Positions 1-44,516 of a stretch of 64,000 bases of DNA are shown here, piece by piece (within the stretch, counting starts at the first letter, position 1; each line of letters begins with the position of its first letter). The notes under the pieces are model-generated. The model had not been told where the DNA came from and ran no database searches. It worked only from the letters and a program-made list of their open reading frames with translations. This stretch comes from Aequorivita aurantiaca (lineage in GTDB: Bacteria; Bacteroidota; Bacteroidia; Flavobacteriales; Flavobacteriaceae). A program made the position numbers and the translations under genes. The DNA lies in contig NZ_JAUGQQ010000001.1 of the NCBI RefSeq assembly GCF_030410135.1, positions 434,001 through 498,000 of the forward strand. Reading direction: 5' to 3'.

Positions 1-3000
1 GCAAGCGCGAAAACTGGGGGAAACTATTGCCCAATCGCAACCAAATATTACTGTTTCAGGCCTTGTTGGGTCTTCGGTTTCGTTGGTTTTGGCTGAGGTT
101 TTTACCAATTCGGAATTGCCTTTTCTTTTAATTTTGAATGACAAAGAAGAAGCCGCCTATCATTTAAACGATCTCGAAAATTTATTGGGCGATCAAAATG
201 TGCTTTTCTATCCGGGAAGTTACCGCCGCCCGTATCAAATTGAAGAGACCGACAACGCGAATGTTTTGTTGCGAAGCGAGGTTTTAAACCGAATAAATTC
301 CCGAAAAAAACCGGCGCTAATTGTTACGTATCCGGAAGCACTTTTTGAAAAAGTGGTCACGCGAAAGGAATTGGAGCGAAACACTTTGAAAATAAAGGTG
401 AACGATCAACTTTCAATCGATTTTGTAAATGAGGTTTTGTTTGAATATCATTTCAAAAGAACTGATTTCGTTACCGAACCGGGCGAATTTTCAGTGCGTG
501 GGGGAATCTTGGATGTGTTCAGTTTCAGCAATGATGAACCTTATCGAATTGAATTTTTCGGCGATGAGGTTGACAGTATTCGCACCTTCGACGTAGAAAC
601 CCAGCTTTCGTTGGAACAGGTAAAAAAAATCGCCATTATTCCGAATGTTGAAAACAAAATGGTCGATGAAAACCGCGAAAGTTTTCTGAAATATATCAAT
701 TCCAAAACTGTGGTTTTTCTTAAAAATGAAGAACTTTTCAGCAGCGCGATCGACAATCTTTTCAAAAAAGCAACTGAAGCTTTCAATGCAATTGATTCAG
801 AAATAAAGCGAGCAAAGCCTTCGGAGTTGTTCTGTTCTTCGGAGTTGTTGAAAGAGCAATTGAAAGATTTTACAAAAGTTCAATTAAAGAATAACCCCAC
901 AAAAACTCCCCTCCCTTCGGAAGGGGCCGGGGGTGGGCTTTCTTTTACAACCAAACCGCAGCCGTCTTTCAACAAACAATTCAATTTACTGATTGAAAAC
1001 TTGAATGATAATTCAAAAAAAGGCTATAAAAACTATATTTTCTGCAGCAGCGCACAGCAGGCAAAACGTTTTCATGATATTTTTGAGGATGCGCAACAAA
1101 ATGTGGAACAGTTTGAAACCATTGTATTTCCGCTATTTCAAGGGTTTATTGATGACGATTTAAAACTTGTTTGCTACACTGATCATCAAATTTTTGAACG
1201 ATACCATAAATTTCAATTGAAAAATGGTTATGCCAAAAAACAGGCGATCACTTTAAAGGAAATTACCAATCTTGAAGTGGGCGATTACGTAACGCACATT
1301 GACCACGGAATTGGGAAATTTGGTGGTTTGCAAAAGATTGATGTAGAAGGAAAAATGCAGGAAGCCATCAAACTTTTTTATGGCGACCGCGATATTTTGT
1401 ACCTCAGCATCCATTCGCTTCACAAGATTTCAAAATTCAACGGCAAGGACGGAAAAGAGCCCAAAATCTACAAATTGGGCAGCGATGCATGGAAAAAATT
1501 AAAGCAAAAAACCAAGACGAGAGTAAAGGAAATTGCTTTCAATTTAATTGAATTGTACGCCAAACGCCGCACGCTGAAAGGTTTTGCTTTCGATCCGGAC
1601 AGTTATTTGCAAGCAGAATTGGAATCTTCCTTCATTTACGAAGACACGCCGGATCAAAGCACCGCAACGGAAGATGTAAAAAAAGATATGGAAAACGAGC
1701 GTCCCATGGACCGTTTGGTCTGCGGCGACGTAGGTTTTGGAAAGACGGAGGTTGCAATTCGAGCTGCTTTTAAAGCGGTGGACAATGGAAAACAGGTAGC
1801 TGTTTTGGTGCCGACAACAATTTTGGCATTTCAACATTTTAAAACTTTTACCGAACGACTTTCGGAAATGCCCGTAAAAGTTGATTATCTCAACCGTTTT
1901 CGAAACACAAAGGAGCGAAAAACCGTTTTGGAAGAATTGAAAAATGGCAAACTCGATATTGTTATTGGCACGCATCAATTGGTCAATAAATCGGTTGAAT
2001 TTAAGGATTTGGGTCTTTTGATAATTGACGAAGAACAGAAATTTGGAGTGGCCGTAAAAGATAAATTAAAGACAATCAAAGAAAATGTGGATACGCTCAC
2101 GCTAACGGCGACGCCCATTCCGCGTACGTTGCAGTTTAGTTTGATGGCTGCGCGCGATCTTTCGGTTATCACAACGCCGCCGCCAAATCGTTATCCGGTG
2201 GAAACGCATGTGATTCGTTTCGGGGAAGAAAGTATTCGGGATGCAATTCGTTATGAAATTTCGCGCGGCGGACAGGTTTTCTTTGTTCACAATAGAATTG
2301 AGAACATAAAGGAAGTCGCCGGCATGATTCAGCGTTTGGTACCTGATGCGAAAATTGGTATCGGTCACGGCCAAATGGACGGAAAAAAATTGGAAGATTT
2401 GATGCTTCGGTTTATGAATAATGAATTCGACGTTTTGGTTTCCACAACCATTATTGAAAGCGGTCTCGACGTGCCGAATGCGAATACGATATTCATCAAC
2501 AACGCCAATAATTTTGGACTTTCAGATTTGCACCAAATGCGCGGTCGTGTAGGCCGAAGCAATAAAAAAGCGTTCTGTTATTTCATAACTCCCGATTATT
2601 CCGCAATGACGGATGAAGCTCGAAAACGGATTACCGCATTGGAACAGTTTTCAGAACTGGGCAGCGGGATAAATATTGCGATGAAGGATTTGGAAATCCG
2701 CGGTGCGGGCGATTTGCTGGGCGGCGAACAGAGCGGATTCATAAACGAAATCGGTTTTGAAACCTATCAAAAAATTCTCGCGGAAGCTATTGAGGAATTA
2801 AAAGACAAAGAGTTCAAAAATCTATACGAAGAAACTGAAGGTCCGAAGAAAAATTTTGTAAAGGAAATGACAATCGACACCGATTTCGAATTGCTTTTCC
2901 CCGATGATTATGTGAACAATATTACGGAAAGGCTCAATCTGTACACCAAACTGAACGAGTTAAAAAATGAAGCCGAACTTCAAAAATTTGAAAGGGAATT

Positions 3001-34297: not shown

Positions 34298-34381
34298 TAA
34301 TAATATTTCCAATTATTGAAGTCTTCTAAAGCTTCAATACTTCTGGAACCGAAATCGCCGGTTATTGAGCGAAGCCTAAAT

Positions 34382-36481
34382 ATGGCAAAACATATTAATG
34401 TCGCACTTATTGGAAACCCCAACACCGGAAAAACCTCAGTGTTTAACCGACTTACGGGGATGAACCAAAAGGTGGGAAACTATCCCGGAATTACTGTTGA
34501 AAAAAAACAGGGCGTCTTCAAGTTTGGCCGAGCCTCCAAAGTACATCTACTTGATTTACCAGGTACTTACAGTTTGAACGCATCATCCATTGATGAGAAT
34601 GTTGTGATTGAACTTCTTTTGAATAAAAATGACAAGGATTTTCCCGATGTTGCCGTTGTCGTGGCGGATATTGAAAACCTGAAACGCAATTTACTCCTCT
34701 TCACCCAGATTAAAGATTTGGGAATACCCACAATTCTGGCAATTAACATGGCAGATAGAATGAAGCGTAAAGCCATTTCGCTGGACGTTGAGTTACTTGA
34801 GGAAAAACTCAATACCAAAATTGCATTAATTAGTTCCAGAAAAAATGTGGGATTTGATTATTTAAAGCAATTGATAGAGGATTACAAACATCTTTCCACA
34901 AAACCAAGTTTGAACGCCTCAAACATTTCCCCTGAATATTTTGACAGGCTGAGAAAGGCGTTCCCAAACCAAGATCTTTACAAGCTTTGGCTGGTGATAA
35001 CACAGGACGTAAATTTCGGGAAGTTGGACCGGAAGGAATTGAAAGGAGTAGCGTCTTTCCAAACGGAATCGGTCAGTAATCTTAAACGTCTTCAGCAGAA
35101 GGAAACTGTGGCCCGCTATCAATTTATCAATGAAACCTTAAAAGAAACCCTTCACATTGACAGTGCAAATGCCAAGGATTTGAGAAGTCGACTTGATAGG
35201 GTTTTAACCCACAAAATTTGGGGATACGTGATTTTTTTCGGCATATTGCTTTTGATTTTTCAGGCAATATTTGATTGGAGTGCCTATCCAATGGATTTTA
35301 TTGACAGCACTTTTGCCTCCATGAGCGAATGGGCCAAAAATACCCTTCCGCCAGGTGATTTTTCTAACTTGATAGCTGAAGGAATAATTCCCGGCTTGGG
35401 CGGGATTGTTATTTTCATTCCTCAGATTGCCTTTCTTTTCCTTTTCATTTCAATTCTCGAGGAAACGGGATATATGAGTCGGGTGGTTTTTCTGATGGAC
35501 CGTATTATGCGCAGGTTCGGGCTGAGCGGCAAAAGTATTGTGCCATTAGTGGCCGGTACCGCATGTGCCATTCCAGCAATTATGGCAACGCGCAACATTG
35601 AAAACTGGAAGGAGCGGTTGATTACTATTCTCGTTACCCCTTTCACAACGTGTTCTGCGCGTTTGCCGGTTTACTTAATAATTATTTCATTGGTAATTCC
35701 CGATGATCGGGTTTTAGGAATTTTCAGTTTACAAGGGCTTACCTTAATGTTTATGTATATTTTGGGGTTCGCTGCCGCTATTCTTTCAGCATATCTTTTG
35801 GATAAAATTTTGAAAATACGCTCCAAAAGTTTTTTTGTGGTGGAAATGCCAAATTATAAAATTCCACTTCCAAAAAATGTTTTGATAACCGTTGTAGAGA
35901 AGACCAAAGCCTTCGTTTATGGTGCAGGGAAAATAATTTTGGCCATCTCGGTTATTCTTTGGGTCTTGGCATCCTACGGCCCAGGTGATTTTAATAATGC
36001 CGAAACAATTGTGCAGGAAAGATATGCACAACAAAACCTGTCCGATGAAGAGTTTGAAATGCACGTTGATTCCTATAAATTGGAAAATTCCTATATCGGC
36101 CATGTGGGCCACGCCATTGAACCAGCGGTAAGGCCTTTAGGCTACGATTGGAAAATAGGCATCGCATTGATCAGTTCCTTTGCCGCGCGTGAAGTTTTTG
36201 TAGGAACCCTAGCCACCATTTATAGCGTGGGGAGCGAAGATGAGCAAACCATAAAAAGCAGAATGGCCGCAGAACGCAATCCTATTTTGGGAGGACCGCT
36301 CTTTAATTTTGCGAGTGGCGTTTCATTACTGTTGTTTTATGCTTTTGCAATGCAATGCATGAGTACGTTGGCTATCGTAAAAAGAGAAACCAACAGTTGG
36401 AAATGGCCCTTATGGCAATTGGTGGTTATGAGCGCTATTGCTTATGTGGTTGCCTTGGCGGCCTATCAATTATTGAAATAA
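34382..36481 (+). CDS. feoB: Ferrous iron transporter FeoB
   Basis: An inner-membrane Fe(II) importer with a cytoplasmic G domain. In the 699-residue protein the G1 motif GNPNTGKTSVFNRLTG is near residue 11, followed by VGNYPGITVEKK (switch I), DLPGTYSL (G3), NMAD (G4) and ISSRKN (G5). The membrane domain has the two Gate repeats, with MSRVVFLMDRIMRRFGLSG, VPLVAGTACAIPAIMATR, and FAAREVFVGTLATIY. A frame upstream begins at a TTG (34316), but the ATG at 34382 directly precedes the G-domain start and is preferred. Two FeoB-associated microproteins follow. Confidence 0.96.
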   Translation: MAKHINVALIGNPNTGKTSVFNRLTGMNQKVGNYPGITVEKKQGVFKFGRASKVHLLDLPGTYSLNASSIDENVVIELLLNKNDKDFPDVAVVVADIENLKRNLLLFTQIKDLGIPTILAINMADRMKRKAISLDVELLEEKLNTKIALISSRKNVGFDYLKQLIEDYKHLSTKPSLNASNISPEYFDRLRKAFPNQDLYKLWLVITQDVNFGKLDRKELKGVASFQTESVSNLKRLQQKETVARYQFINETLKETLHIDSANAKDLRSRLDRVLTHKIWGYVIFFGILLLIFQAIFDWSAYPMDFIDSTFASMSEWAKNTLPPGDFSNLIAEGIIPGLGGIVIFIPQIAFLFLFISILEETGYMSRVVFLMDRIMRRFGLSGKSIVPLVAGTACAIPAIMATRNIENWKERLITILVTPFTTCSARLPVYLIIISLVIPDDRVLGIFSLQGLTLMFMYILGFAAAILSAYLLDKILKIRSKSFFVVEMPNYKIPLPKNVLITVVEKTKAFVYGAGKIILAISVILWVLASYGPGDFNNAETIVQERYAQQNLSDEEFEMHVDSYKLENSYIGHVGHAIEPAVRPLGYDWKIGIALISSFAAREVFVGTLATIYSVGSEDEQTIKSRMAAERNPILGGPLFNFASGVSLLLFYAFAMQCMSTLAIVKRETNSWKWPLWQLVVMSAIAYVVALAAYQLLK

Positions 36482-37397: not shown

Positions 37398-38558
37398 TTA
37401 CCCTCGAAAAAGAAAGAAATCCTCTTTCATGGGTTCTATTTTTTCATCTTTATTGCTTAGGATGTATTGAAGCGATTTTTCAGTAAAGAGCAAGCCTTTT
37501 GGCGTAAGTAGAACTATGTTGTTCCTAATTTCCACAAGATTATTTTTTTCGGCCAAATCCAATACTGTTTTGGCGCGTACCGCATGCCAATTTATATGTT
37601 CCTGTAAGTGATTTATGTGTCTTTCACTTTCTTCTTCATGTCGGTTTAAGTGTAGCAATAAAGTAATTAATGAAACTTCAACACGTTGTTGCTTTTGCCT
37701 ATAAAGTACTGAAATGAGGCCTTTTTTGGGTGCGAAAAGGTAGACGAACAAAAATATAGCCCCCAAGGTTGTAGCGATGGATCCCGAAATGGATGCATCT
37801 AAGAGGTTCGCGACCCAATAACCTGATATTGCTGAAAGAACGCCAAATAATAAAGATAGCAATATCATTTTTTTTAAATCTTCCGTAAGCATATAGGCTG
37901 TTGCCGCAGGAGCGATCATTAAGGCTACAACCAAAATTGCGCCCACGGCATCAAAGGCACCCACTACCGTTATGGAAGAAACTGACATTAGTCCATAATG
38001 CATCACCACAGGTGAGATACCCAAAACTGATGAAAGGCCGGCATCAAAAGTGCTGATTTTTAATTCCTTAAAAAACAGCAATAGTAGAATAATGGTAGCC
38101 AAAAGGATACTTCCCATTACCCAGAGCGATTTGGGTCCTAAATCTGTCCCGTTCATCATCAATCTATCAAATGGTGCAAAGGCCAGTTCGCCGAGCAATA
38201 CGGCATCAACATCCAAATGCACATCATTCGCATTTTTTGAAATTAATATAACCCCAATACTAAATAATGCGGGAAAAACCAAACCTATGGCTGTGTCTTC
38301 TTTCACCAAGCCCGTTTTTTGTATGAACTCGACCAGCACAACCGTAATTACTCCCGTAAATGCGGCCAAAAGAATGAGCAGCGGAGAGTTTAAATCTTGG
38401 GTAAGGAAAAACCCCAAAACAATTCCCGGAAGTATGGAATGGCTTATGGCATCACTGATAAGCGCCATTTTCCGAAGTACTAAAAATACCCCAGGAATAG
38501 CGCAGGCCATTGCTACAATAGCCGCAATTAATTGTATTTCAATTTGCGGATGGCTCAT
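37398..38558 (-). CDS. Metal ABC transporter permease 2 with C-terminal winged-helix-like domain
   Basis: A 386-residue protein. Residues about 1-280 form the eight- or nine-segment membrane domain of ABC-3 family permeases for Mn, Zn or Fe (QIEIQLIAAIVAMACAIPG, SHSILPGIVLGFFLT, VGAFDAVGAILVVALMIAP). Residues about 295-375 are soluble (LITLLLHLNRHEEE, NHLQEHINWHAVRAKTVLD, LLTPKGLLFTEKSLQYIL) and look like the winged-helix domain of DtxR-type regulators. Permease-regulator fusion is known from chlamydial YtgCR. It overlaps the first permease gene by 4 bases and is the last gene of the five-gene metal operon. Confidence 0.88.
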   Translation of the reverse strand: MSHPQIEIQLIAAIVAMACAIPGVFLVLRKMALISDAISHSILPGIVLGFFLTQDLNSPLLILLAAFTGVITVVLVEFIQKTGLVKEDTAIGLVFPALFSIGVILISKNANDVHLDVDAVLLGELAFAPFDRLMMNGTDLGPKSLWVMGSILLATIILLLLFFKELKISTFDAGLSSVLGISPVVMHYGLMSVSSITVVGAFDAVGAILVVALMIAPAATAYMLTEDLKKMILLSLLFGVLSAISGYWVANLLDASISGSIATTLGAIFLFVYLFAPKKGLISVLYRQKQQRVEVSLITLLLHLNRHEEESERHINHLQEHINWHAVRAKTVLDLAEKNNLVEIRNNIVLLTPKGLLFTEKSLQYILSNKDEKIEPMKEDFFLFRG

Positions 38559-39676
38559 TGACTGCTTTTTTGGTTATAGATTTCCTGCGCCTGTTTATAG
38601 CCTTTTGCTGTCATGGCCCATTGTTGCCCCTGTATAGTTATCCATCCCTCATTTTCCAGTTTTTGCAGCGATCCTCGGGTGTAGCCCTGAAAATTATTGA
38701 GAATTCGAATGGCGTGTGGATGTGAAATATTTTCGTGTTCCAGCGCTATTCCGTACATAAACTGTAGGGTCTTGAACAATTTCATATCGGCACGATTTTT
38801 TCGCAAGCGGATTTCCCGAAAAAGGATGCCTCTTGTTGGTGAAAATATAAATGAGAATAAAACAAAAACTCCAGCCACTAAAACTATCACCGGTCCGGTG
38901 GAAAGGTTATTTTGGCTCGCGCTGATTGCTGTTCCCAATACCCCTGAAACTGCACCAATTATGGCAGCAAGTAAAATCATTATGCTCAAATTGTTTGTCC
39001 ATTGGCGTGCGGCTGCGGCAGGCGCCAGCAAAATTGCGCTCATTAGCACTACACCCACAGTTTGTAAGCCTAAAACAATGGCCAAAACAATCAGGAATGT
39101 AATTAGCACATCAATAAATTTTGTATTGAATCCAAGGGTTTTGGTATATTCTGCATCAAAAAGTAGAATTTTGAATTCCTTCCAAAAAAGCAACATTACG
39201 AAAAGGGAAATAGCTGTTATTATGATCATCAATAAAACATCACTTTCCAAAAGAGTAGCTGCCTGACCAAAAAGATATTTATCCAGTCCAGCTTGGTTGG
39301 CATTAGGTTGTTTTTGGATAAAGGTGAGCAGCAACATTCCGAAGCCGAAAAAAACAGAAAGAATCAACCCCAGTGCGGTATCACTTTTTAAATGTGTTTT
39401 GTTTGTAATTCCTCTAATCCAAAAAGTTCCTACTAAACCGCTCACCAAAGCCCCCATTAAAAGAACGCCGGAATCTTTGGCGCCGGTAATCAGAAATGCC
39501 AAAGCAATACCGGGAAGCGCCGCGTGGGAAATAGCATCGCCCAACAAACTTTGTTTCCGCAAAACTGCGAAACTTCCGAGCATTCCACAGATAGCGCCAA
39601 GAACCGCTGTTCCTAGGGTTATTGTGCGCAGCGTATAATCTGTCCACAGTAAGTTGAAATATTCCGTTATTGACAT
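38555..39676 (-). CDS. Metal ABC transporter permease 1 with C-terminal winged-helix-like domain
   Basis: A 373-residue paralogue of the neighbouring permease. The membrane part (about residues 15-290) has LGAICGMLGSFAVLRKQSLL, DAISHAALPGIALAFLI and GLQTVGVVLMSAILLAPAAAA. After a basic hinge (REIRLRKNRADM), residues about 305-370 form a soluble domain with FMYGIALEHENISHPH, FQGYTRGSLQKLENEGW and AMTAKGYKQAQEIY, resembling a DtxR-type winged helix. The two permeases probably form a heterodimer. They follow the ATPase gene after 59 bases. Whether the soluble domain binds DNA or only controls transport is open. Confidence 0.88.
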   Translation of the reverse strand: MSITEYFNLLWTDYTLRTITLGTAVLGAICGMLGSFAVLRKQSLLGDAISHAALPGIALAFLITGAKDSGVLLMGALVSGLVGTFWIRGITNKTHLKSDTALGLILSVFFGFGMLLLTFIQKQPNANQAGLDKYLFGQAATLLESDVLLMIIITAISLFVMLLFWKEFKILLFDAEYTKTLGFNTKFIDVLITFLIVLAIVLGLQTVGVVLMSAILLAPAAAARQWTNNLSIMILLAAIIGAVSGVLGTAISASQNNLSTGPVIVLVAGVFVLFSFIFSPTRGILFREIRLRKNRADMKLFKTLQFMYGIALEHENISHPHAIRILNNFQGYTRGSLQKLENEGWITIQGQQWAMTAKGYKQAQEIYNQKSSQ

Positions 39677-39735: not shown

Positions 39736-40473
39736 TTATTTATTCACGGCTACTTTATAATTAATGCCATAAGTTTGGGTTAGGTTATCATCATTAAAAA
39801 TTTCTTTAACAGGTCCAGTTGCAATTTTCTTCACATTTAGAAACGTTACCCAGTCAAAATATTCGGGTACCGTTTGCAAATCATGATGAACAACAATTAC
39901 GGTTTTGCCGGATTTTCGCAGTTCCTTCAAAATATTAATGATTGCAATTTCAGTAGTGGCATCCACACCTTGAAGCGGTTCGTCCATAAAATATATAGAA
40001 GCATCCTGGGCCAACGCTCGTGCCAGGAAAACCCTTTGTTGCTGCCCTCCGCTCAATTGGCTAATTTGCCGTGCTTTGTATGCTAACATCCCCACTTTTT
40101 CCATTGCCTCCAGTGCAATTTTCTTTTCCTTTTGTCCCGGACGCCTTATCCAGCCCAAACTACCATAAGTGCCCATCATTACAACATCTAGCGCTGTTGT
40201 GGGAAAATCCCAATCCACACTGCCTTTTTGAGGTACGTAGGCAACCAATTTGCGCTGCTTGGAATATGCTTCTCCATAAATTGATACCGATCCGGCAATT
40301 GGTTTTATAATGCCTAAAATTGTTTTTATGAGGGTAGATTTTCCGGCCCCATTTGGTCCTACGATTGCCATCAAAACACCTTCTGGCACTGTTAAATCTA
40401 TATCCCATAAAACAGGTTTGTAATTATATGCCACCGTTAGGTCATCTATCTGTACTGCTATTTTTTGCTCCAT
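39736..40473 (-). CDS. Metal ABC transporter ATP-binding protein
   Basis: A 245-residue ABC ATPase that powers the two permeases. Walker A is [10 protein letters not shown] (about residues 38-47), the Q-loop lies in [15 protein letters not shown], the signature is [19 protein letters not shown], Walker B is [13 protein letters not shown], and the H-loop is VVHHDLQ. The [10 protein letters not shown] region is typical of the Mn/Zn/Fe chelate importer class (TroB/MntB/ZnuC-like). It lies between the solute-binding protein gene (17 bases upstream) and the first permease gene. Confidence 0.93.
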
Positions 40474-40490: not shown

Positions 40491-41396
40491 TTATTTTAAT
40501 GCATTTACGATAGTATTTACATTGTGTCTAAACATTCCGATATAAGTTCCTTCCTCTGTTCCCGGGTTTCCCAAGGCATCGCTATAAAGAGAACCGCCAA
40601 TTTCCACATTAAAGTTTTTCGCACGCACCGCTTGTTGAAGTGCTTCAATTGTGCGTTTTGGAACGGAACTTTCAACAAAAATGGCTTTAATGTTATTTTT
40701 TATAATAAACTCTGATAAATTTTGAACGTCTTTAACTCCAGCTTCAGTTGCGGTGGATATGCCTTGCAAGCCCACAACTTTAAAACCATATGCCTTGCCA
40801 AAGTAACTGAATGCGTCGTGAGCCGTTACCAATATCCGCTTTTCTTTCGGGAGGGTTTCAATGATGGATTTAATTTCAGATTCAAGAGAATCTAATTTTT
40901 GCTGATATTTTAGATTATTTTCAGAATAAATTTGATCATTTTCGGGGTCTGCCTTTGAAAGTTCATCCGTTACTATCTGTGCAAACTGCTTAAAATACTG
41001 AACGTTGAACCAAACGTGAGGGTCAAAATTTGAAGCAAAATATTCAGAAGAAATCAGGTCTTCTTTTGGCAACATGTCTCCTAATGAAACAGTAGTTTTT
41101 TCACCCTCCATTTTTTCAAAAATTTCTACCAATTTTCCTTCCAAATGCAGACCTCCGTAGAAAATAATATCTGCCTCATAAAGTTTGGAAACATCTCCTT
41201 CGCTGGCTTTGTAAAGGTGTGGATCTACGCCGGCACCCATTAAGCCTTGTAGTGAAATATGGTCGCCCCCAATTTCGGAAACCAAGTCGGTAAGCATGGT
41301 AGTGGTGGTTACTACCTTAAGCTTGCCATCGTTTTTCTCCGCATTTTTACAACTTAATGTGAGGATAAAAAGGCCTATAATTAATACTTTGTTCAT
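40491..41396 (-). CDS. Metal ABC transporter substrate-binding lipoprotein
   Basis: A 301-residue cluster A-I metal-binding protein of the TroA/MntC/ZnuA family. The signal peptide [15 protein letters not shown] ends in a lipobox, so Cys16 is lipidated. The four metal ligands are in [10 protein letters not shown] (His), DPHVWFNVQ (His), [10 protein letters not shown] (Glu) and [10 protein letters not shown] (Asp), the set used for Mn or Fe. The His-rich loop of ZnuA is absent, which argues against zinc. The frame is open to 41450, but the ATG at 41396 starts the signal peptide. A TTTGC-N5-GCAAA dyad lies just upstream. Confidence 0.92.
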
Positions 41397-41414
41397 AGAG
41401 TTTTGGATGTTAAA

Positions 41415-41429
41415 TTTGCCTTCAGCAAA
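41415..41429. promoter_or_regulatory. TTTGC-N5-GCAAA dyad before the substrate-binding gene
   Basis: TTTGCCTTCAGCAAA lies in the 56-base gap between the DtxR-family gene and the substrate-binding protein gene, 18 bases before the latter's ATG. It looks like the MntR box known from Bacillus subtilis (TTTGCCTTAAGG type). It may provide internal metal control of the operon. Confidence 0.4.
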
Positions 41430-41452
41430 AAGCGTTGCGTTTTTTTCCATTA

Positions 41453-42109
41453 TTAAACAGTTTGCACATATAGGTTTTCCGCAATTTTGTGTGAAATAAA
41501 AAATTGTTCACTGCCAACCTGAATTATCATTGAGCCATCAAAGAATTCCTTTCCCAGCACGGTTATTTTTGTACCGATGCTAATTTTTTTCTTATCTAAA
41601 TATTGAAGAAATTCTGCGCTGCTTTCCTTTACGCCCACACATACGCCTTGATGGTTTTTTTCAATTTCTGCTAGTAATTTTTTCTCGGTTCGTTTTAATA
41701 CTCCATGTTTATCTGGAATTGGATCGCCGTGTGGATCAAAATCTGGACTGCCTAGAAATTGGTCGAGCCTCGTTATTAATTCTTCGGACTGAATGTGCTC
41801 TAACTGTTCGGCTATTTCATGCACTTCATCCCAATGAAAATTCAATTTTTCAACCAAAAAAACTTCCCAAAGTCGGTGCTTCCGTATAACACCGGCGGCA
41901 ATTTTCCTTCCGGATTCTGTTAGTTGCGCGCCTTTGTAACGTTTATAGACCAACATTTTTTTCTCTGCAAGTTTTTGAACCATATCTGTAACCGAGGAAG
42001 GTTTTGTTTCCATGCTTTCCGCAATGGCGTTGGTGCTTACTTCCCCGGCGCTTTCCAATTCTAAATGAAAAATGGCCTTTAAATAGTTTTCTTCCGCAAG
42101 GGTCATCAT
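41453..42109 (-). CDS. DtxR-family metal-dependent repressor
   Basis: A 218-residue regulator with the full three-domain DtxR/IdeR layout: an N-terminal winged helix (TLAEENYLKAIFHLE, IAESMETKPSSVTDMVQKL, LTESGRKIA), a metal-binding dimerisation domain with VIRKHRLWEVFLVE, HEIAEQLEHI and DFDPHGDPIP, and a C-terminal FeoA/SH3-like domain (from about 150). It probably senses Mn(II) or Fe(II) and represses the importer. A -7 promoter element lies at 42125-42132, upstream of this start, so the in-frame ATG at 42127 cannot be used; 42109 or 42106 is the start. It heads the operon and is divergent from the TonB receptor. Confidence 0.93.
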   Translation of the reverse strand: MMTLAEENYLKAIFHLELESAGEVSTNAIAESMETKPSSVTDMVQKLAEKKMLVYKRYKGAQLTESGRKIAAGVIRKHRLWEVFLVEKLNFHWDEVHEIAEQLEHIQSEELITRLDQFLGSPDFDPHGDPIPDKHGVLKRTEKKLLAEIEKNHQGVCVGVKESSAEFLQYLDKKKISIGTKITVLGKEFFDGSMIIQVGSEQFFISHKIAENLYVQTV

Positions 42110-42124
42110 AAATTTAAGTTTATA

Positions 42125-42154
42125 CAAAGATATATTTTTTTGTATTAAAACAAA
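42125..42154 (-). promoter_or_regulatory. Promoter of the metal-uptake operon
   Basis: On the minus strand TTTG (42151-42154), an 18-base spacer and TATCTTTG (42125-42132) fit the Bacteroidota promoter consensus. Transcription would begin around 42118, a few bases before the regulator's start at 42109. The TTTAG-N6-CTAAA dyad lies two bases upstream of its -33 element. Confidence 0.65.
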
Positions 42155-42166
42155 TATTTAGCTTTG
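42140..42166 (+). promoter_or_regulatory. Promoter of the TonB receptor
   Basis: TTG at 42140-42142, a 16-base spacer and TAGCTTTG at 42159-42166 form a plus-strand promoter, about 40 bases before the receptor's ATG. Its -7 element lies inside the candidate DtxR-type operator, so bound repressor would block RNA polymerase. Confidence 0.55.
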
Positions 42167-42172
42167 CCTAAA
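42157..42172. promoter_or_regulatory. Candidate DtxR-type operator TTTAG-N6-CTAAA
   Basis: TTTAGCTTTGCCTAAA has perfect 5-base arms, and outer A-T pairs extend the symmetry. DtxR, TroR and related regulators bind palindromes with TTAG and CTAA cores. It overlaps the receptor's -7 element and touches the -33 side of the divergent operon promoter, so one site could control both. Binding is inferred. Confidence 0.55.
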
Positions 42173-42209
42173 AATAATATTACCCTTAACTAATTAAATC
42201 CATTTTTAT

Positions 42210-44516
42210 ATGAAATCCTTTATTATTTTATTTTTATTAGTCGTTCCAATTGCTACGGCACAGAATTCAAAAGTGAAAATTATGGGAACGGTTTCGGCTA
42301 ACGGAAATCCAGTTCCATACGCAAGTGTCTATATAAAAGACGGGAGCGATGGCACCAATGCAGATGCCAACGGCAATTTTGAATTTGAAACCGCGGCGGG
42401 CATTCTTATTGTTATTGTACAATCCCAAGGTTTTAAAGCGCAAAATATTACTGTGGATACTTCAAATGAAGAAATTATATTATTGAATTTTGTCTTGGAA
42501 GAAAGCGATGAGGAATTGGAGCAAGTTGTAATAACCGGCACCCGAACCAAAAAGAGACGCATTGACTCTCCTGTTATAGTGAATTTAATAAATAGCGAAA
42601 CATTGGAAAACGTTGTAGCCACTGATCTTTCTGAAGGGCTTCGGTTCCAGCCCGGGCTGCGTGTTGAAAAGGACTGCCAAACCTGCAATTACACTCAAAT
42701 TAGATTGAATGGATTGCAGGGCGGTTATTCGCAAGTGCTGATCAACGGGCGGCCAATATTTAGTCCGTTAACCGGATTGTATGGTCTCGAACAGATTCCC
42801 GTGAATATGATTGAGCGAATTGAAGTGGTTCGCGGTGGCATTTCAGCATTGTACGGTTCTAGCGCTATCGGGGGTACGGTAAACGTAATCACTAAAATTC
42901 CTAAACAAAATAATTACAGTTTGGCCTATACTTATGAAAATATTGATGGCAATGCAGATCAAAATATAATAAATGGAAATGCTACGGTTGTAAGCAAAAA
43001 CTATAATGCCGGCGCGAATTTCTTCGTCAGTAACAGACAACGAAAAGCCTATGATGCGAACGACGACAATTTTTCGGAAATGCCCGAACTAAAGGATAAT
43101 TCCTTCGGAATGAATGCTTTTTATCTTCCTTCGGAAAATTCAAAGCTGGAATTTAATTTTAGCAGTCTGTACGAATATCGGTTTGGAGGTGAAATGGTAG
43201 AAAAACCGGCTTATTTGGCACAACAGGCCGAAGAACGCACCCACAATATTTTAATGGGAGGTGTGGATTATCAAATAAATTTTAATGAAAACAAAAGCTC
43301 ATTTATTCTTTATTACGGCGGGCAGCGCACAAATCGTGACCATTACACGGGAATTATTCCTGATACTTCCGCTGATCAGCAAGAATTTTTTGCCGCACCT
43401 CCTTATGGAATTTCCAAGGTTTATACCCACCAAGGCGGTGCGCAGTTTAACAACCGGTTTGATGAATTTTTTACCGGAACAACTGTATTAACCGGAGGGA
43501 TAGAATATACTTTCGATGATGTTTTTGACCAAATCCTATCCTATAATTACCTGATTGATCAAACCACAAAAAACCTCGGCGCTTTTGTGCAGAATGATTG
43601 GAACATCACGGAAAATCTAAATTTTCTTTCGGGCTTTAGAATAGATAAGCATAATTTATTGAACCATGCCATTTTCAGCCCAAGGCTTTCCTTGCTTTAT
43701 AAAATGAAAGAAACCACACAGTTCCGTCTGGGTTGGGGAACAGGCTTTCGGGCACCACAGGCTTTTGATACCGATTTGCACATAGCATTCGCCGGAGGCG
43801 GCGTATCCAGAATTTCATTGGCTAATGGTTTAATGGAAGAAAAATCCAACAGTTTTACGGCCTCGGTCAATTATGATAAAGCCTCGGAGCATTTTATCGG
43901 CGGTTTTACCTTGGAAGGTTTTTATACCCATTTAGATAACGCATTTTATTTATTTCCAATTGGGGAGGACGAATTCGGAGATCTTTTTGAAAAACGGAAT
44001 GGAAGTGGAGCAACGGTAAGTGGCATAACGGTGGAAGCGAGAGCGAATTTTGACTATTTGGTAGAAGTAGATGCAGGGTTTACCTTTCAAAAAAGCCTAT
44101 TTGACGAAGCCATAGAAAACATAAACGGACTGCCACTGAAACGGGAATTTTTGCGAACTCCCAATCATTACGGTTACGCAACTTTAACGTACGCACCCAC
44201 TAAAAAATTCGGGATAAGTGCGAATCTAGTTTTCACCGGACCTATGGACATTCTACACCTTGCGGGCGAAAATACTGGGCAAGAAGTGGATGAATATTAC
44301 AAAACAAAAAGTTTCACTGAAATTAGTTTTAGAATGGGCTACACTTTTTCCATTCCAAAAGTAAGCACCGGACTGGAACTTTTCGGAGGCATTAAAAACA
44401 TCACGAACAGCTACCAGAATGATTTCGATATTGGAAAAAATCGAGATAGCAATTATGTTTACGGACCGGGTTCGCCTAGGGCAGTATTTTTCGGTCTAAA
44501 AATTCAATCTCTTTAA
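42210..44516 (+). CDS. TonB-dependent outer-membrane receptor
   Basis: A 768-residue receptor. A signal peptide (residues 1-18, cleaved after IATAQ) is followed by a carboxypeptidase-regulatory-like domain (about 22-97), a TonB box-like VVITGTRTKKR, and a plug domain (SEGLRFQPGLRVEK, QIRLNGLQGGYSQVLINGR, IERIEVVRGGISALYGSSA). The plug contains DCQTCNY, with Cys156 and Cys159 as a CxxC. The 22-strand barrel follows, ending in VFFGLKIQSL with a terminal aromatic pattern. Its divergent position to a DtxR/ABC operon and the shared operator suggest uptake of Mn, Fe or a chelate. The substrate cannot be fixed from sequence. Confidence 0.93.
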   Translation: MKSFIILFLLVVPIATAQNSKVKIMGTVSANGNPVPYASVYIKDGSDGTNADANGNFEFETAAGILIVIVQSQGFKAQNITVDTSNEEIILLNFVLEESDEELEQVVITGTRTKKRRIDSPVIVNLINSETLENVVATDLSEGLRFQPGLRVEKDCQTCNYTQIRLNGLQGGYSQVLINGRPIFSPLTGLYGLEQIPVNMIERIEVVRGGISALYGSSAIGGTVNVITKIPKQNNYSLAYTYENIDGNADQNIINGNATVVSKNYNAGANFFVSNRQRKAYDANDDNFSEMPELKDNSFGMNAFYLPSENSKLEFNFSSLYEYRFGGEMVEKPAYLAQQAEERTHNILMGGVDYQINFNENKSSFILYYGGQRTNRDHYTGIIPDTSADQQEFFAAPPYGISKVYTHQGGAQFNNRFDEFFTGTTVLTGGIEYTFDDVFDQILSYNYLIDQTTKNLGAFVQNDWNITENLNFLSGFRIDKHNLLNHAIFSPRLSLLYKMKETTQFRLGWGTGFRAPQAFDTDLHIAFAGGGVSRISLANGLMEEKSNSFTASVNYDKASEHFIGGFTLEGFYTHLDNAFYLFPIGEDEFGDLFEKRNGSGATVSGITVEARANFDYLVEVDAGFTFQKSLFDEAIENINGLPLKREFLRTPNHYGYATLTYAPTKKFGISANLVFTGPMDILHLAGENTGQEVDEYYKTKSFTEISFRMGYTFSIPKVSTGLELFGGIKNITNSYQNDFDIGKNRDSNYVYGPGSPRAVFFGLKIQSL

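Follow-up and report, generated by a model that had tools for sequence, protein, structure and literature searches.

A metal importer operon with tailed permeases

We analyzed a 64,000-nucleotide stretch of the Aequorivita aurantiaca genome (hereafter, the window; contig NZ_JAUGQQ010000001.1, positions 434,001 to 498,000), which contains a minus-strand operon encoding, in gene order, an MntR/DtxR-FeoA regulator, a binding lipoprotein, an ATPase and two permeases, P1 and P2. The features considered here, in window coordinates, are:

42157..42173, minus strand: operator-like palindrome TTTTAG-N6-CTAAA ahead of the regulator gene, seen by eye in 14 of the 16 upstream regions aligned
41453..42127, minus strand: stand-alone MntR/DtxR-type regulator with FeoA domain (PF01325, PF02742, PF04023)
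40491..41450, minus strand: metal-binding lipoprotein, ZnuA/MntC-like (PF01297, E 8e-79)
39736..40473, minus strand: ATPase subunit, 245 aa (PF00005, E 4e-30)
38555..39676, minus strand: P1, ABC-3 family permease, 373 aa
38558..38827, minus strand: P1 tail, residues 284-373, predicted winged helix (AlphaFold2, Foldseek, profile comparison)
38714..38737, minus strand: P1 histidine cluster H314, H319, H321 (H-x4-HPH; tail conservation counts)
37398..38558, minus strand: P2, ABC-3 family permease, 386 aa
37401..37712, minus strand: P2 tail, residues 283-386, predicted winged helix (AlphaFold2, Foldseek, alignments)
37596..37652, minus strand: P2 histidine cluster H303, H307, H317, H321 (conservation counts; helix positions from AlphaFold2)

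The reading frames of P1 and P2, the sole ABC-3 permeases of the genome, overlap by 4 bases (38555-38558). Both proteins have an N-terminal ABC-3 domain (PF00950, E 1.7e-51 and 9.8e-73) with a DxxxH metal pair, at residues 47-51 of P1 and 36-40 of P2, and P1 is 89% identical to its counterpart in a relative from the same genus (G022). Among the 25 matches listed for the ATPase there were only P-loop families, and none of them pointed to a C-terminal regulatory domain in this 245-aa protein. The original prediction had placed a full DtxR regulator in the same operon, and the gene is indeed there, upstream in the row, with PF01325 (E 1.4e-14), PF02742 (E 9.6e-33) and a FeoA domain; it is the sole PF02742 match in the genome. 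The nearest families are Zn and Mn binding proteins for the lipoprotein and MntR for the regulator, all with scores under the curated cut-offs. The operon encodes a transition-metal ABC importer, the metal probably being Mn or Fe/Zn. Inspection of the lipoprotein frame by eye makes the second Met (about 41396), which opens a lipoprotein-like signal, the likelier start.

The importer is adjoined by a convergent plus-strand ORF (34316-36481) that by eye resembles a FeoB-type ferrous iron transporter, and on its other side lies an ORF for a TonB-type receptor, likewise recognized by eye (42210-44516).

Both tails are predicted to adopt a winged-helix fold

The ABC-3 match stops at residue 278 in P1 and 275 in P2, leaving approximately 95 and 110 residues beyond the domain, so that the soluble tail of about 80-100 residues originally proposed for each permease was borne out by the reading frames. 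AlphaFold2 models, built from alignments of the window tails with those of other loci (51 rows for P1, 15 of them from the fuller permease-DtxR fusions described below, and 42 rows for P2), predict the proposed winged helix for both. The P1 model (mean pLDDT 91.8, pTM 0.80) consists of helices 285-311, 323-328 and 334-342, two strands forming the wing, and a helix at 357-372; the P2 model (mean pLDDT 79.6, pTM 0.72, with confidence lower near the end) has the same order of elements, including the two-strand wing and the last helix. In the tail-only model of P1, the first helix is predicted to run continuously from the first post-membrane residues, and since it is unbroken after the membrane, the tail models display no flexible segment for release.

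Foldseek searches with either tail retrieved mostly winged-helix regulators, including MarR, CggR, MntR and DtxR; within the best 50 matches, MntR and DtxR were found for the P2 tail and DtxR for the P1 tail, and no match reached E <= 0.001 (best, 0.0087 for P2 and 0.011 for P1). Scanning the isolated tails against Pfam and NCBIfam yielded no model above cut-off, PF01325 and PF02742 included, and the weak sub-cut-off matches were partly to winged-helix families (HemN_C, BlaI). A PDB sequence search gave no match for the P1 tail and a single meaningless one (E 4.2) for the P2 tail. The C-terminal segment of P2, KIEPMKEDFFLFRG, is conserved in Flavobacteriia-type rows only, with FFLFRG at the end of P2 in all 12 Flavobacteriia-type representatives that possess this end.

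Relationship of the tails to DtxR

Profile comparison linked the P1 tail to DtxR directly with a probability of 38%, to the tail of YtgCR-like relatives, that is, the fuller fusions, with 97.7%, and the fuller-fusion tail to DtxR with 99.95%; the best of 20 control slices scored 0.13%, and one P1 row containing X was left out. By these sequence profiles, the P1 tail is kin to DtxR via the fuller fusions. The P2 tail matched the P1 tail at 75.7% and DtxR at 3.9%, so its DtxR origin is indirect.

A survey of 198 genomes of the phylum provided 29 best new loci, 14 with two short tails, 14 in which P1 is long (about 430 aa) and P2 lacks a tail, and one other. All five long P1 proteins tested contain PF02742 (E 1e-20 to 1e-25), and the one other locus (L061) encodes a permease that carries PF02742 (E 1e-27) and, just below cut-off, a FeoA-like end. 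In a tree of the P1 membrane parts (29 rows), 13 rows, namely 12 long-tail P1 and one tail-less protein, separated from 16 rows comprising the window's type together with single-tail and tail-less kin from Deinococcus, Halomonas, Paracoccus, Fusobacterium and Niallia. The split, with a support of 99/100, implies that the long-tail and short-tail forms are old, separate branches. Four loci (L025, L031, L032 and L061) were excluded from the alignments because of a split frame, an overlap or a single permease.

Two of these loci, L025 and L031, come from a member of the window's genus (G009) and have P1 broken into two frames, by either sequencing error or pseudogene formation. The L061 frame (1471-2955, plus strand) combines an ABC-3 permease with a near-complete DtxR, FeoA-like end included, and similar long frames occur in genomes G121 and G094.

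Invariant histidines in the tails

The most conserved positions of the short tails include several histidines. In the P1 tails, H314 and H321 are present in 133/133 rows and H319 in 118/133; in the P2 tails, H303 and H307 are present in 130/130, H321 in 127/130 and H317 in 124/130. These counts omit 11 loci of genomes already included as well as rows cut by locus ends, and at least six genomes are counted twice (e.g., L006/L083). Among representatives at 60% identity, H314 and H321 of P1 were each retained in 28 of 28 rows, and in the 19 rows for P2, H303, H307 and H321 were retained in all and H317 in 16. According to the model, the P2 histidines would form one HxxxH in helix 1 (H303/H307) and another in helix 2 (H317/H321). 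Other conserved residues are W353 in P1 (133/133) and W324 (130/130) and E312 (129/130) in P2, with the remainder of the tails being about 16-30% identical between lineages. Statistically, histidine is only modestly enriched in the most conserved columns (2 of 7, P = 0.034; 3 of 11, P = 0.034).

None of the 18 fuller fusions has a histidine at the P1 cluster positions, whereas all 18 carry the ligand motif of the DtxR C-domain, which is found in 0/115 P1 short tails and 0/114 P2 short tails. Given this exchange of motifs, the putative histidine site seems to replace the DtxR metal site. The unchanging histidines suggest, at the level of sequence, that the tail senses the metal being taken up and restrains the pump instead of acting as a gene switch; they may also have a structural role.

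Co-occurrence of the two tails

Among operons with a histidine-marked P1 tail, P2 was in view in 115, and 114 of these have a tailed P2. The exception, L150, has a tail-less P2 frame, and a frameshift is likely there because the ATPase and P2 frames are both shortened; one more locus with a P1 short tail (L091), in which P2 is cut by the locus end, stands outside the 115. The original prediction amounted to the arrangement known from Chlamydia in duplicate, and this is not supported: the 18 operons with long, YtgCR-like P1 tails, which keep the DtxR ligands, have a tail-less P2 in each of the 15 cases in view (P2 is out of view in the other 3), and the window's type is the opposite on both counts.

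Genome G387 (L228/L195) has a P1 that keeps H and HPH and a P2 that lacks a tail in all three frames, a natural tail loss. In Paracoccus, both tails are present and the histidines are partial (H-Y-A in P1, H-H-T-T-N in P2). Three Deinococcus plasmid operons encode a P2 tail lacking the histidines and a shortened P1 tail, two of the three P1 ends showing H-x5-H by eye, and a Halomonas plasmid encodes a P1 tail lacking histidines and a tail-less P2 split across two frames. We considered, on plasmids of other phyla, whether the P1 and P2 histidines make up one shared site that is lost jointly; this idea fits the Halomonas and Deinococcus operons but not G387 or the H-x5-H of the two Deinococcus P1 ends, and was rejected as unproven. 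The co-occurrence pattern is no more than suggestive.

Of 395 genomes sampled from the phylum, 40 gave a strong match to the P2 tail, and many marine genomes of the Flavobacteriia and Rhodothermia type encode tail-bearing importers; a search of plasmids with the P2 tail gave zero matches. Many of the ABC-3 permeases encountered are tail-less (e.g., L030, L186 and L189, the latter on a Fusobacterium plasmid). At three Kordia loci (L147, L157, L159), P2 is about 463 aa long, and in L147 the extra, partly hydrophobic stretch of about 75 residues lies ahead of the tail.

DNA reading and the separate regulator

The third helix of DtxR is the DNA-reading helix. The corresponding helices of the tails vary: position 328 of P2 is F, R, V, Q or H, and the P2 helix is hydrophobic in some lineages, while in P1, 18 of 28 representatives have R or K at position 335 and 17 of 28 have one of the two at position 343, which DNA binding would likewise explain. 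In the stand-alone regulator, M49 is kept in 19 of 19 representatives and S45, K51 and K52 in 16 of 19, and each of the five residues S45, T47, M49, K51 and K52 in 15-19 of 19. The mean net charge of the winged helices is +1.5 for P1, -1.0 for P2, +5.0 for the fuller fusions and +3.0 for the stand-alone regulator. From these sequence features, a DNA-binding role for the tails appears less likely.

A DtxR-like frame adjoins the importer in 62 of 81 loci of the named genome set (window included), some of these frames being only 30-45% identical, and the palindrome count given above covers loci whose regulator is at least 65% identical and that have sufficient DNA ahead of it. In a set of 20 operons, a stand-alone DtxR lies beside 15, namely 12 of 14 with fuller fusions, 2 of 5 with two tails and the one with a tail-less permease. 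The notion that the YtgCR-like forms do without a separate regulator is thus wrong. Across entire genomes, a PF02742 protein was present in 20 of 21 examined, in one case (G046) as the fused protein itself; the remaining genome, G191, has two tails and no such protein.

A possible metal-feedback brake on the importer

Our best reading, which we put forward tentatively and hold to be a little short of an even chance, is that the paired tails are cytosolic, metal-binding domains of DtxR descent that regulate transport by feedback, with transcription handled by the separate MntR/DtxR. A cytosolic location would follow from the basic stretch after the last membrane segment (six K/R vs two D/E at P1 residues 284-300). 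The two tails would sit side by side beneath the transporter and bind the imported metal through their histidines; at high cytosolic metal, they would reposition the ATPases or the final membrane-spanning helices, thereby slowing transport and leaving control of operon transcription to the separate regulator at the palindrome. In a study on Bacillus anthracis MntBC, removal of the cytosolic C-terminal helix left the permease in the membrane but completely inactive (PMC8487065), which ties the C-terminal end of such permeases to transport. By analogy, a metal-binding domain on the post-membrane helix of both permeases would be well placed to slow the pump. With still less assurance, we propose a possible evolutionary route in which a metal ABC permease acquired a DtxR-derived winged helix that later gave up DNA reading and its metal domain, came to occupy the partner permease as well and took on the histidine site, ending as a brake through which metal acts directly on both halves of the importer.

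Winged helices often dimerize, and the tails could instead be assembly parts that pair P1 with P2 or dock the ATPase, the histidines being structural (e.g., zinc-binding) or involved in packing. The matching tails on two different permeases, the invariant Trp next to the histidines in each and the methyltransferase dimer domains in the P1 Foldseek list fit this explanation, which we nevertheless consider unlikely, given close relatives with one tail (G387) or none (the Fusobacterium plasmid). Less probable again is that the tails pick up the incoming metal where it leaves the permease on the cytosolic side and deliver it to the ATPase side, a chaperone or the stand-alone MntR, aiding release instead of inhibiting transport. 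The invariant histidines, the position of the tails directly after the last transmembrane segment and the presence of an MntR/DtxR in the operon would accord with such a hand-off; however, the many tail-less permeases show that hand-off can do without a tail, and winged helices are not known to serve in hand-off.

The tails might also be transcription regulators of the YtgCR kind, present twice and either held by the permease or released from it. In Chlamydia, cleavage is reported to detach YtgR from YtgC, and YtgR acts as a repressor of its operon (PMC5599777, PMC7755916). The DtxR kinship of the P1 tail, the predicted fold, the basic positions retained in the P1 recognition helix and genome G191, with its two tails and no PF02742 protein, are in line with such a role. 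Against it stand the loss of the DtxR dimer and metal domain, the variable recognition helices together with the near-neutral P2 tail, the predicted helix unbroken into the domain, the separate regulator with its conserved operator in the window, and the near-universal presence of a PF02742 protein in the genomes examined; we consider this the least probable of the alternatives. Of the original prediction of a twofold YtgCR fusion, therefore, the winged helix, the DtxR/YtgCR kinship and the presence on both permeases stand, whereas the metal ligands and dimer domain have been lost and the recognition helices vary. Metal-dependent control, also suggested at the outset, persists as a possibility for transport, and is less likely for transcription.

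Comparison with known systems

The closest known counterpart is Chlamydia YtgCR (CT069), an ABC permease with a C-terminal DtxR-like repressor; YtgR is reported to keep the DtxR ligands and to be cleaved (PMC5599777). What the window shares with it is a metal-importer operon in which a DtxR-derived winged helix follows an ABC-3-type permease. Unlike YtgCR, the window's tails are without the metal/dimer domain, carry histidines, occur on both permeases and are accompanied by a separate MntR/DtxR. Chlamydia YtgCR was the only permease-DtxR fusion among the literature matches listed, in a search that covered subscription journals thinly, and we regard the window's tails as a new variant of this kind of fusion, differing from it. 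The Bacteroidota permease-DtxR fusions (P1 about 430 aa long, as in L050 and L055; also L061, with its FeoA-like end) resemble the window in operon order, permease family and the homologous tail, but keep PF02742 (E 1e-20 to 1e-27) with its ligands, lack the histidines and, where seen, are paired with a tail-less P2.

Metal ABC importers are usually discussed as transcriptionally controlled. A review describes substrate feedback on ABC importers for methionine and molybdate systems: MetNI and ModABC carry a fused cytosolic domain to which the substrate binds and which shuts transport off (PMC10710835). In our working model, the window's importer would by analogy have such a domain, here a putative one, although in those systems it resides on the ATPase and has another fold, whereas the window's tails sit on the permeases and have a putative ligand. 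The Mn importers PsaBC and MntBC have the same ABC-3 permease with a D-x3-H metal pair; in contrast to the window, their permease is homodimeric and has only a short cytosolic C-terminal helix (PMC11779740, PMC8487065).

If the feedback reading is correct, trans-inhibition would be sited on the permeases of the Mn/Fe/Zn importer family, and the paired histidine-marked domains would allow concrete and cheap testing of direct metal feedback. The series from a complete DtxR fusion to a histidine tail would then trace how a gene regulator turned into a part of a transporter.

Four other proteins of about 340 aa (L222, L223, L224 and L225), which matched the P2 tail weakly (E about 1e-4), appear by eye to consist of one N-terminal membrane helix followed by a DtxR with a winged helix, motifs of the metal domain and FeoA-like repeats, and are candidate membrane-tethered DtxR regulators of Bacteroidota.
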